In this document: positions 46,948-50,281 of the stretch, piece by piece
How positions within the stretch are numbered: position 1 is the first letter of the stretch
Layout of the letters: each line of letters opens with the position of its first letter
NCBI RefSeq assembly: GCF_018362995.1
Contig: NZ_CP074372.1
Span: 2,790,001-2,854,000, forward strand
Length of the DNA stretch: 64,000 nt
Direction of reading: 5' to 3'
Source: Chryseobacterium indologenes
Lineage (GTDB): Bacteria; Bacteroidota; Bacteroidia; Flavobacteriales; Weeksellaceae
The notes under the pieces: generated by a model
The model's input: the letters and a program-made list of their open reading frames with translations, nothing else
Told to the model about the DNA's origin: nothing
The model's database searches: none
Translations under genes and position numbers: made by a program

Positions 46948-47733
46948 ATGAAAGCAATTTGGAACGGCGCCATTGGCTTCGGTTTAGTCAACATTCCTGT
47001 TAAAATTTATTCGGCAACGGAAACCACAAAGTTGGATCTCGATATGCTCGACAAATCTGATTTTTCCAATATCCGGTTCAAAAGAGTAAATGAAAATACG
47101 GGAAAAGAAGTAAAATGGGAAAATATCGTCAAAGGTTATCTCATGGATGACAAATATATCGTTCTTGATGAGGAAGATTACGAAGCGGCAAGCCCCGAAA
47201 AGACAAAAATCCTCTCTATTGACCAGTTTGTAAAAGAGGCAGAAGTAGACAGTATGTATTTTGAAAATCCTTACTATCTGGAACCTCAGAAAAATGGGGA
47301 AAATGCGTACAGGCTTTTACTGAAAGCTCTTGAAAAAACAGGTATGGTAGGAATCGGAACGTTTGTGCTCCGTGAAACAGAAGCTATTGGAATGATCCGT
47401 CCTTACAAAGATGATATCCTTGTTCTCAACCGTTTGAGGTTTGATCAGGAAATAAGAGATTATAAAGATTTAAAAATTCCAGCTCAAAAAGCTCCGAAAC
47501 CGGCAGAACTTAAAATGGCGGTTAATCTTATTGAACAGCTTTCCCAGGAGTTTGATCCTGCGATGTACAAAGACACCTATTCTGATGAACTGATGAAAAT
47601 CATTAAGCAGAAAGCAAAAGGTAAAAATATAAAAGCTAAAAAAGCACAGCCTGCAAAAGAAGGTAAAGTGATTGACCTCATGGCACAGTTAAAAGCCAGC
47701 CTGAATACTTCTAAATCCAAATCCGCATCATAA
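46948..47733 (+). CDS. ku: Ku protein for non-homologous end joining
   Basis: A 261-residue bacterial Ku that binds double-strand breaks as a homodimer and recruits LigD. Seen: MKAIWNGAIGFGLVNIPVKIYSATE at the start, YYLEPQKNGENAYRLLLKALEKTG, and ELKMAVNLIEQL in the core; the C-terminal about 40 residues are Lys-rich, as in many bacterial Ku proteins. Its stop overlaps the ATG of the ligD phosphoesterase ORF by one base (47733), so the pair is one operon for end joining. A Crp-type palindrome lies upstream. Confidence 0.95.
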   Translation: MKAIWNGAIGFGLVNIPVKIYSATETTKLDLDMLDKSDFSNIRFKRVNENTGKEVKWENIVKGYLMDDKYIVLDEEDYEAASPEKTKILSIDQFVKEAEVDSMYFENPYYLEPQKNGENAYRLLLKALEKTGMVGIGTFVLRETEAIGMIRPYKDDILVLNRLRFDQEIRDYKDLKIPAQKAPKPAELKMAVNLIEQLSQEFDPAMYKDTYSDELMKIIKQKAKGKNIKAKKAQPAKEGKVIDLMAQLKASLNTSKSKSAS

Positions 47734-48338
47734 TGGCTCTCAAAGATTATAATAACAAAAGGAAGTTCGATGAAACCAGCGAACCGAAAGGAAAAACGAA
47801 GAAAAGCAAAGACAAACTTATTTTTGTAATTCAAAGGCATGCTGCGAGCAGACTTCATTATGATTTCCGGCTTGAAATGGAAGGTGTACTGAAAAGCTGG
47901 GCTGTTCCGAAAGGTCCTTCTTTAGATCCGAAAGACAAACGCCTCGCCATGATGGTGGAAGATCACCCTTATGATTATAAAGATTTTGAAGGAAATATTC
48001 CCGAAGGAAATTATGGTGCCGGACAGGTGGAAGTATGGGACAGCGGAACTTATGAGCCTTTGGAAGAAAACACTAAGCTTTCTGATGAAAAAGAGCTGCT
48101 GAAAGAATTACATGCAGGATCTTTAAAATTCATTTTACACGGCAAGAAACTGAAAGGTGAGTTTGCTTTGGTTAAAATGAAAAATACGGATGATAACTCA
48201 TGGCTACTGATCAAACATAAAGATGATTTTGCAGAAAGTCCATATGATGCTGAAGAAAACACCTCGTCAAAATCATTGGTTACAAAATTTTTAGAGGAAA
48301 AAAAAAGCCTAAAAATAAAGGAAAAAAAGAAGTCATAA
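47733..48338 (+). CDS. ligD: LigD 3'-phosphoesterase domain (5' part of split ligD)
   Basis: A 201-residue ORF matching the 3'-phosphoesterase module of LigD: KLIFVIQRHAASRLHYDFRLEMEGVLKSWAVPKGPS, MVEDHPYDYKDFEGNIPEGNYGAGQVEVWD and WLLIKHKDDFAE. This module removes 3'-phosphates and ribonucleotides at breaks before sealing. The ORF ends 33 bases after a run of nine A (48298-48306) with the low-complexity tail KSLKIKEKKKS. Adding one base in the run (or a -1 ribosomal slip on A AAA AAA) continues in frame into the ligase ORF, giving an 849-residue protein of normal LigD size and PE-Lig-Pol order. Thus this is probably the 5' half of one gene, either frameshifted or expressed by slippage. Confidence 0.88.
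   Translation: MALKDYNNKRKFDETSEPKGKTKKSKDKLIFVIQRHAASRLHYDFRLEMEGVLKSWAVPKGPSLDPKDKRLAMMVEDHPYDYKDFEGNIPEGNYGAGQVEVWDSGTYEPLEENTKLSDEKELLKELHAGSLKFILHGKKLKGEFALVKMKNTDDNSWLLIKHKDDFAESPYDAEENTSSKSLVTKFLEEKKSLKIKEKKKS
48298..48306 (+). other. A9 tract at the ligD frame switch
   Basis: Nine consecutive A inside codons GAA AAA AAA AGC. A -1 shift here leads directly from the phosphoesterase frame into the ligase frame (…AAA AAG CCT AAA…). A7 at 48322-48328 is a second possible site. Confidence 0.75.
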
Positions 48339-48409
48339 CTTCCGAAAAAACTTTCAGAAATTTCAATTCTTTAACAAACGAAAAAAAATTAAAGTCTTAC
48401 ATCAAACCC

Positions 48410-50281
48410 ATGCTGGCCAAGCTTTCCGAAGAAGCCTTCAATGATAAAGACTGGATTTTTGAAATAAAATGGGACGGCTACAGAGCTATTGCCGACTTAA
48501 GTCACGACGTTCCTCTCTTCTATTCCCGAAACGGAATTTCATTTTTATCCAAATTTGAAAAAATAGCACTGGAGTTCGAAAAACAGAAACATCACATGAT
48601 TCTGGATGGTGAAGTGGTAGCGTATGACGAACATGGAAAGCCTAATTTTCAGTTTTTGCAGCAAATCGGGGATAATCCCGATGCCGCTCTTGTTTATCAT
48701 GTTTTTGACCTTCTATGGCTGAATGGTCATTCTACAGAAGATCTTCCTTTTATCCAACGAAAGGAACTTTTAAAAGAGGCGCTGACAGAAACGGATCGCA
48801 TTAAATACTGTGATCATATTCCGGAAAAAGGTATTGAGTTTTTTGCACAAATGAGAAAAATGCAATTGGAAGGGATGATTGCAAAACGGGCAGAAAGTCA
48901 CTATATCGAAAATCACAGAACCAATGACTGGCTTAAAATCAAATTTTCCAACACAGAAGAGGTTATTATTTGTGGCCTCACAGAACCCAGAGGTTCAAGA
49001 AAAAGTTTTGGGGCTTTAATTTTAGGAAAATATCTAAATGGAAAGCTTACTTACTGCGGACATACAGGAACAGGTTTTAATAACGCTTCTTTAAAAGAGC
49101 TTTACCAAAAACTTCAGAAACTGGTTGTGAAAGCATCTCCATTCGAGATTATTCCCAAAACCAATATGCCGGTAACATGGACAAGGCCTGAACTGGTCTG
49201 TGAGATCAAATATTCTGAAATTACACGAGACGGAATCTTCAGACATCCTGTTTTTATAGGAATAAGAGAAGACAAAGATCTTAAAGAGATCAAAGATTCA
49301 TCCTTCACCGAAAAACCTAAAGAAATGAAAACAAAAACATCATCAAAAAAAACAGAAGTTTCCGAGAAAGAAAAAGAGATCACTTTGGACAAACATTTGG
49401 TAAAACTGACAAATCAGGATAAAATCTATTTCCCAAAAGATGACATTACTAAAGGAGACGTTATTAATTACTATCAATCGGTAGCGACTTATATCCTGCC
49501 TCATTTAAAAAACCGACCGCTTTCTCTAAACCGTTTTCCGAATGGAATTGAAGAACAGAGTTTTTATCAGAAAGATGCCGGAGATCATATTCCGGACTGG
49601 ATAAAAACCACACAGGTATATTCTGAATCCAATGATAAAAACATCGACTATATTTATTGTAATGACAAAGCAACTTTAGCCTACCTGAATAATTTAGGAT
49701 GTATAGACCTAAACCCCTGGAACAGTTCTTTACCGGATCTTGAGCATCCTGATTACTTGGTTTTAGACCTGGACCCTTCTTCCAAAAACACATTTGATGA
49801 GGTGATTGAAACAGCACTTCAGGTGAATGAGGTTTTAAAAACAATTAAAATAAAAGGCTACTGTAAAACTTCCGGAAGTACGGGAATTCATATCTATATT
49901 CCCATGGGATCTCATTACGATTTTGACCAGGTAAAAGATTTCGCCCATATTCTTATGAAACAAGTGAATGAAAGACTTCCTGAGATTACTACTTTAGAGC
50001 GAAGTCTTCAGAAAAGAGATAACAAAAAAATCTATCTCGATTATCTTCAAAACAGGACGGGACAAACTCTAGCAAGTGCCTACAGTCTGAGACCTAAACA
50101 GGGTGCATCAGTTTCAATGCCATTGGATTGGGATGAATTAAAACCCGGACTGAGACCTACGGATTTTAATATTAATAATGCTTTGGACAGGATCAAAGAG
50201 AAAGGAGATTTGTTTAAGCCGGTTCTGGGTAAGGGAATTGATATGATGAAGGCTTTGGAATTGCTACAAAATATTGATTAA
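48410..50281 (+). CDS. ligD: LigD ATP-dependent ligase and polymerase domains (3' part of split ligD)
   Basis: A 623-residue ORF counted from its first ATG. The ligase domain comes first: motif I EIKWDGYRA with the AMP-accepting Lys20, DGEVVAYD, EGMIAKRAES and DWLKIK, then the OB domain ending near residue 300. The primase-polymerase domain (about 330-620) follows, with KIYFPKDDITKGDVINYY, catalytic Asp453 and Asp455 in VLDLDP, and GSTGIHIYIPM. The frame is open further 5' than this ATG and reads RGKKKPKNKGKK across the A9 tract, so the true N-terminus is probably the phosphoesterase ORF through a one-base slip. By itself it starts only 20 residues before motif I, which could still be a functional ligase-polymerase. 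Confidence 0.9.
   Translation: MLAKLSEEAFNDKDWIFEIKWDGYRAIADLSHDVPLFYSRNGISFLSKFEKIALEFEKQKHHMILDGEVVAYDEHGKPNFQFLQQIGDNPDAALVYHVFDLLWLNGHSTEDLPFIQRKELLKEALTETDRIKYCDHIPEKGIEFFAQMRKMQLEGMIAKRAESHYIENHRTNDWLKIKFSNTEEVIICGLTEPRGSRKSFGALILGKYLNGKLTYCGHTGTGFNNASLKELYQKLQKLVVKASPFEIIPKTNMPVTWTRPELVCEIKYSEITRDGIFRHPVFIGIREDKDLKEIKDSSFTEKPKEMKTKTSSKKTEVSEKEKEITLDKHLVKLTNQDKIYFPKDDITKGDVINYYQSVATYILPHLKNRPLSLNRFPNGIEEQSFYQKDAGDHIPDWIKTTQVYSESNDKNIDYIYCNDKATLAYLNNLGCIDLNPWNSSLPDLEHPDYLVLDLDPSSKNTFDEVIETALQVNEVLKTIKIKGYCKTSGSTGIHIYIPMGSHYDFDQVKDFAHILMKQVNERLPEITTLERSLQKRDNKKIYLDYLQNRTGQTLASAYSLRPKQGASVSMPLDWDELKPGLRPTDFNINNALDRIKEKGDLFKPVLGKGIDMMKALELLQNID

Follow-up and report, generated by a model that had tools for sequence, protein, structure and literature searches.

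In a 64,000-nucleotide stretch of the Chryseobacterium indologenes genome (the window; positions 2,790,001-2,854,000 of a single contig of 5.0 Mb), the gene for LigD, an enzyme of non-homologous end joining (NHEJ), is divided between two reading frames that meet at a run of nine As (A9). From a comparison with its relatives we read ligD as one gene that is probably recoded at this run by programmed transcriptional slippage, a reading to which we give a probability of about three in four. The polymerase as the slipping agent, the ratio of the products and a use of its own for the free 3'-phosphoesterase (PE) are what we infer from these sequences. The features concerned are the following, with the open reading frames (ORFs) of the PE and of the ligase-polymerase (Lig-Pol) on either side of the junction:

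47733-48338, forward strand: 5' part of ligD, PE ORF, 201 aa (PF13298, 154.4 bits; TIGR02777; chains 2lj6 and 3n9b).
48294-48297, forward strand: GAGG directly 5' of the A run (sequence; alignment of A9-type relatives).
48298-48306, forward strand: A9 run, GAA AAA AAA AGC in the PE frame, the proposed slippage site (sequence; relatives).
48308-48409, forward strand: linker in the -1 (ligase) frame, PKNKGKKEVITSEKTFRNFNSLTNEKKLKSYIKP (coding-type codon-position pattern).
48336-48338, forward strand: TAA stop of the PE frame, starting 38 nt past the first base of the run.
48410-50281, forward strand: 3' part of ligD, Lig-Pol, 623 aa from the first ATG (PF01068, PF04679, PF21686; TIGR02776, 545.1 bits; chains 1vs0 and 5dmu).
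46948-47733, forward strand: ku, the neighbouring gene, NHEJ Ku protein, 261 aa (PF02735; TIGR02772, 301.8 bits with a cut-off of 150).

Relative to the PE frame the ligase frame lies at -1, and both stay open over a shared 82 nt around the A9 run, so that the three LigD domains, offset by one base, do not share one reading frame in the DNA. Pfam places the LigD_N domain in the first ORF and the ligase and primase-polymerase domains in the second. The coordinates of both ORFs and of the run are as given in the initial annotation of the window, which had also noted that the ligase frame is open upstream of its ATG through the run. Its calculation that one extra A yields an 849-residue PE-Lig-Pol protein agrees with ours ((50281 - 47733 + 1 + 1)/3 = 850 codons including the stop), and the LigD-like domain order that it proposed fits the 870-position model NF004628, for which either half alone scores below the whole-protein cut-off. 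The PE, ATP-ligase and primase-polymerase domains each exceed their curated cut-offs, and the translations contain RHAASRLHYDFR and EDHPYDY in the PE, EIKWDGYR in the ligase and LDLDP and SGSTGIHIY in the polymerase, which we take to be the catalytic motifs of these enzymes. Both halves are under purifying selection, with a third-position diversity of 0.43-0.48 versus 0.04-0.18 at first and second positions. The best sequence matches among solved structures were 2lj6 for the PE domain, the NHEJ polymerase domains 5dmu and 6sa0, and the Rv0938 ligase domain 1vs0; 3n9b, also matched by the PE, is titled 'probable ATP-dependent DNA ligase'. The nearest named relatives by LigD are C. rhizoplanae and two other Chryseobacterium strains, to which the ligase part is 96% identical.

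To place the split within the genus, we read 152 junctions and kept 147 loci, the window copy included, after removing one without a nearby ligase and four of a second LigD type, defined by a ligase identity below 52%. These loci come from the matches listed (150, more for ten genomes), so that some second copies lie outside the 152; eight genus matches with open frames of 603-929 aa were assigned to the second type by length alone and left out. Junction runs were counted from six As upwards. A further set of named loci, 80 kept of 90, overlaps in origin with the genus loci and was pooled with them only after removing identical sequences; the distinct sets obtained in this way (129 sequences of A9 type, 138 in total) leave out a broken gene and a second ligD lineage.

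A PE domain is present in 145 of 173 genus genomes, and for most of the 150 genus matches listed its open frame is about 195-226 codons long, versus about 850 if it were fused. The ligase is at -1 in 137 of the 147 orthologue loci, 128 of which have A9 at one codon position and nine A10; three of these nine arose by a flanking G to A change with the frame unchanged, and the other six belong to the second ligD lineage. Seven loci are fused (three with A10, two with A9 and a run-to-ATG distance of 89 nt, two with A11 of the second lineage) and three have the other offset (one A8, the broken gene, and one A9 of the second lineage). The named loci are split at -1 in 76 of 80 cases (75 A9, one A10).

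The initial annotation had left open whether the split reflects recoding, a sequencing or assembly error, or a recent inactivating deletion, and had suggested comparing the run length in sister genomes. Homopolymers are a common place for such errors; yet the same run and frame recur in 75 of the 80 named loci, in many separate assemblies, and both halves are conserved. An uninterrupted ligD in sister strains, which the initial annotation had named as a refutation, is the exception in the genus (7 of 147 loci). Error and recent inactivation are thereby excluded for practical purposes, and of the three options recoding is the one supported. The observation is real, and represents neither an error nor a decayed gene.

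Single loci depart from this picture. The only clearly decayed genus copy among the junctions read is L104/L266 (L104 is Chryseobacterium sp. E1), where the ligD frames are broken at more places. In C. lathyri CC29 (L007 and L106) the run is A8 and the ligase lies in the third frame, in comparison with L105 from C. lathyri KCTC 22544; this may be an error, a genuine loss or an alternative state of the gene. A second LigD, fused and mostly of about 900 codons, is present in several family genomes (L013, L018, L026, L028 and L112-L116); its ligase part is around 40-45% identical.

Among the 138 distinct genus sequences, 132 have at least nine As with the ligase at -1, four deviate by a single A in either direction, and in two an A9 gene is fused by a shorter linker. 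A single gain of an A would fuse the gene, yet A10 fusions account for only 3 of the 138 (L027, L202 and L254); the split state, with free PE and less LigD, thus appears to be favoured, which suggests that it is preferred and more than tolerated. In a midpoint-rooted tree of these sequences the root is split and the state changes five times between split and fused, over a tree length of 18.2 substitutions per site when every site is used; for third positions alone it is about 49, a value that is probably saturated. Phase variation, in which gain and loss of As in the DNA would toggle LigD between cells or strains, is in keeping with the rare A8 (L007/L106) and A10-fused alleles. At a contingency locus, however, mixed states are expected, whereas we found the A9 split in 129 of 138 sequences with few changes in the tree, and we consider this explanation very improbable.

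The stretch between the run and the first ATG of the ligase ORF bears on whether ligD is one gene or two. In the 129 distinct A9 sequences the ATG follows the run at 100 nt (15 sequences), 103 nt (56) or 106 nt (58), a spacing that differs by threes only, and the ligase frame contains no stop over this distance in any of them. No ATG, GTG or TTG occurs there in 104 of the 129, nor in the window. Past the PE stop, the diversity of the linker by codon position in the ligase frame is 0.297/0.231/0.514 (23 well-filled columns), a coding pattern, with the conserved residues FN.L..EKKL..FI.P. The stretch upstream of the ligase ATG therefore appears to be translated, and its only visible entry is a shift at the run. 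Since the linker is stop-free, coding-like and mostly without start codons, full-length LigD must come from a frame shift at the run.

Alternatively, PE and Lig-Pol could be two separate proteins, the latter translated without any frame shift from ATG 48410, by a start of its own or through ribosomes that reinitiate downstream of the PE stop. This ATG is kept in 128 of the 129 A9-type sequences, and separate PE and ligase genes without an A run do exist in our phylum sample (for example L345, with an ATGA overlap). The ATG, however, encodes the methionine of PMLA, the motif that opens the ligase domain, so that it could be conserved without serving as a start. It is separated from the PE stop by a gap of 71 nt. 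In Flavobacterium johnsoniae, A at -3 and at -6 promotes initiation (PMC6847099; here and below, statements from the literature refer to the parts of the cited papers that were covered). Judged by this, the initiation context of ATG 48410 seems mixed: base -6 is A in 120 of 129 sequences, whereas base -3, the main position, is an unfavourable C in all 129. Given also that the run-to-ATG stretch evolves as a ligase-frame protein, we regard two separate proteins as improbable.

The run itself is strongly constrained, being constant across well over a hundred species. GAA AAA AAA AG is unchanged in all 129 distinct A9 sequences, whereas elsewhere in the gene none of 39 conserved Glu or Lys columns has a single codon throughout (top-codon share 0.65-0.98); as the A9 set was defined by its run, the 132 of 138 sequences with at least nine As at -1 are the fairer figure. 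The constraint extends to the Glu codon preceding the run, which is GAG in all 127 A9-type sequences with Glu at this position (129 examined), although GAA is preferred in each of the 18 other conserved Glu columns of the gene. This points to a constraint at the nucleotide level, for which we found no coding explanation.

Runs of this length are rare in the ORFs of this genome, and this rarity, together with the conservation of the run in the genus, speaks against chance. In a 464-kb sample of the genome with 348 ORFs and 384,456 coding bases, we observed five runs of nine or more As within ORFs, the ligD run included, versus 38.5 expected from synonymous shuffling; the depletion was weaker for A8 (41 versus 72.0) and A7 (172 versus 203.2). 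None of the four other A9-containing ORFs of the sample has a long shifted frame; in each it stays open for 23 codons or fewer. Elsewhere in the window A9 occurs just once, at 1894-1902, next to a terminator-like inverted repeat, CCCGAA...TTCGGG.

At the level of the family, orthologues were found in nine genera, and the counts over these (165 at -1, 41 fused, 3 other) refer to loci not made distinct. Of the 168 split loci, 165 are at -1 and three would need a deletion. All 165 have an A9 (132) or A10 (33) run at the frame overlap, and none a shorter one. The 41 fused loci retain a run of nine or more in 29 cases and fall below this in 12. In one genus (g22) the 31 orthologue loci comprise five splits and 26 fusions, and 17 of the fusions still have a run of 9-11. 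The sister genus (g11) is split at A10 in 19 of 21 orthologue loci and fused with A11 in two. Its ligD lineage uses a different run, mostly GT-A10-T, located 85 nt before the ATG. Wherever this lineage was found (31 sequences), there are 26 A10 splits, four A11 fusions and one A9; in none of the 31 do the last 27 ligase-frame codons ahead of the ATG include a stop, and in 24 the interval from run to ATG lacks a start codon. Nine loci in genomes of the window genus (L275, L276, L281, L294-L296, L300, L301 and L303) carry this sister-genus lineage, with A9-A11 at 85 nt before the ATG.

In a sample of the phylum (26 loci, L325-L350, of 41 listed matches), 17 loci are fused, five are split (one at A9, four without such a junction run) and four have a PE without a ligase in the fetched stretch. 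The A9 split is that of L331, from a genome of another order of the class, with a PE that is 83% identical. This suggests that ligD moved together with its recoding site, likely by horizontal transfer.

Under the reading that we favour, transcriptional slippage, RNA polymerase would read a T9 template about as long as its RNA:DNA hybrid, and a fraction of the transcripts would gain one A. The A9 message, the unslipped default, would be translated into the free 201-residue PE and the A10 message into the 849-residue PE-Lig-Pol LigD. The free PE may be used in cleaning 3' ends; as mentioned, PE genes without a ligase in the fetched stretch occur in 4 of the 26 phylum loci. A more speculative element concerns the flanks of the run. 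The GG before and the G after the nine As resemble the flanks of the polymerase pause consensus, and would hold the polymerase while the hybrid is all rA:dT. In bacteria, nine As or Ts are enough for efficient slippage (PMC5009743); the Thermus dnaX gene slips on a run of nine As, and at this length selection against such runs becomes visible in a large share of genomes (PMC1088944). For runs of 7-11 As, one study cited in PMC6260861 found insertions at least twice as efficient as deletions, a bias that fits the near absence of deletion-type splits in the family (3 of 168).

The frame could also be changed at the ribosome. In programmed -1 frameshifting on A AAA AAA, paired tRNA-Lys would slip back by one base into the ligase frame. 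On AAA codons in a row ribosomes are able to slide, reportedly even where only three lysines are encoded by AAA (PMC4363877); the -1 offset of 165 of the 168 family splits is the one expected, and a weak hairpin (-5.8 kcal/mol) is predicted 3' of the window run. Several further observations weigh against transcriptional slippage. The window contains the slippery heptamer A AAA AAA in frame (48299-48305). The sequences 3' of the run fold slightly better than their shuffled counterparts, with a mean z of -0.90 and 21 of 129 values below -2; a length class of 15 sequences shows a marginal consensus helix there (-0.32). Several bases of the run are constrained by coding in both frames, so that its invariance by itself does not distinguish the mechanisms, and the depletion of A9 in ORFs would follow also from ribosome sliding or replication slippage. 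The species counted share ancestry and are not independent, and with 12 of the 41 fused family orthologues having a junction run below nine, slippage is not needed for LigD in general. Finally, E. coli RNA polymerase slips more readily on T than on A runs, and in an in vitro study it mostly deleted on A11, which is the wrong direction (both from PMC6260861, the second as cited there).

The length of the run speaks against the ribosome. Seven bases suffice for frameshifting, yet in every one of the 165 -1 splits the As are uninterrupted over nine positions or more, and the A AAA AAG form does not occur. A 3' stem-loop or pseudoknot is a common but not obligatory stimulator of such shifts; neither of the two large length classes (56 and 58 sequences) showed a consensus RNA structure 3' of the run, in a search that did not extend to pseudoknots. 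A Shine-Dalgarno-like stimulator of -1 frameshifting, which is optional, sits 9-14 nt upstream; GAGG, the only such element looked at, abuts the run at 2 nt from the first slippery codon. Moreover, Bacteroidia ribosomes do not recognise Shine-Dalgarno sequences (PMC9976891; PMC8710568), and in an E. coli cell-free system there was little sliding product on A9 or A10 and a robust one on A11 (PMC4363877). We therefore rank transcriptional slippage ahead of ribosomal frameshifting, which we consider unlikely but still deserving of some weight.

In its components, the system resembles Pseudomonas-type LigD, with the same domains in the same order and Ku as neighbour: the TAA of ku shares bases with the ATG of the PE (TAATG), and ku thus adjoins ligD. 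Pseudomonas-type LigD is, however, encoded in a single uninterrupted frame (compare NF004628), whereas here PE and Lig-Pol lie in different frames. Slippage on poly(A) in endosymbionts is usually read as a rescue of damaged genes in shrinking genomes; the ligD split, in contrast, is stable and genus-wide, in genomes of about 3-6 Mb. What Buchnera and Blochmannia have in common with the proposed recoding of ligD is slippage on A runs in bacterial genes (PMC5009743; PMC6260861). A close parallel is dnaX of Thermus thermophilus, which also has nine coding As and whose messages of differing length are translated into two proteins of DNA metabolism, one short and one long (tau/gamma) (PMC1088944; PMC5009743). 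There, slippage has been measured and the unslipped frame gives the long product, whereas in ligD, for which slippage is deduced by comparison, the unslipped frame would give the short product and slippage the long one. A longer product that requires slippage is known from mxiE-type genes of Shigella flexneri (PMC1088944; PMC5009743), although these do not belong to DNA repair, have another run in another organism, and are likened here without sequence comparison.

The initial annotation knew of no description of slippage for LigD, and our literature searches, which had most subscription papers outside their coverage, likewise found no report of slippage or frameshifting for this protein. Searches for Chryseobacterium with transcriptional slippage had no match, and with LigD yielded only papers on insect microbiota, within the text covered. 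In the covered part of the GeneTack survey of conserved frame transitions (PMC3711429) the sole 'ligase' is a Mur ligase, and the word is absent from the covered part (300,000 of 475,107 characters) of the review PMC5009743. A survey of NHEJ found that Bacteroidetes with NHEJ all have the conventional system, without statistical significance, and the covered main text does not mention Chryseobacterium (PMC7719229). The split may well be overlooked in annotation, because TIGR02776 ('DNA ligase D') matches Lig-Pol alone with 545.1 bits, against a cut-off of 373.2, and the DNA of the genus shows two ordinary-looking genes.

If our reading is true, LigD would be the first NHEJ enzyme known to us to be made by recoding. 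It is possible, though we hold it at rather less than even odds, that across the genus the dose of the NHEJ enzyme and its ratio to a functional free PE are set by polymerase slippage at a selected A9 run. Modifiers of slippage, such as nucleoside triphosphate pools, elongation factors and growth phase, would then tune mutagenic NHEJ without a regulator protein. The natural series, which comprises the A9 split, fusions with A10 or with A9 and a shorter linker, and the A10 and A11 runs of the sister genus, would allow tests of whether slippage sets the protein ratios, and of why a free PE has been kept.

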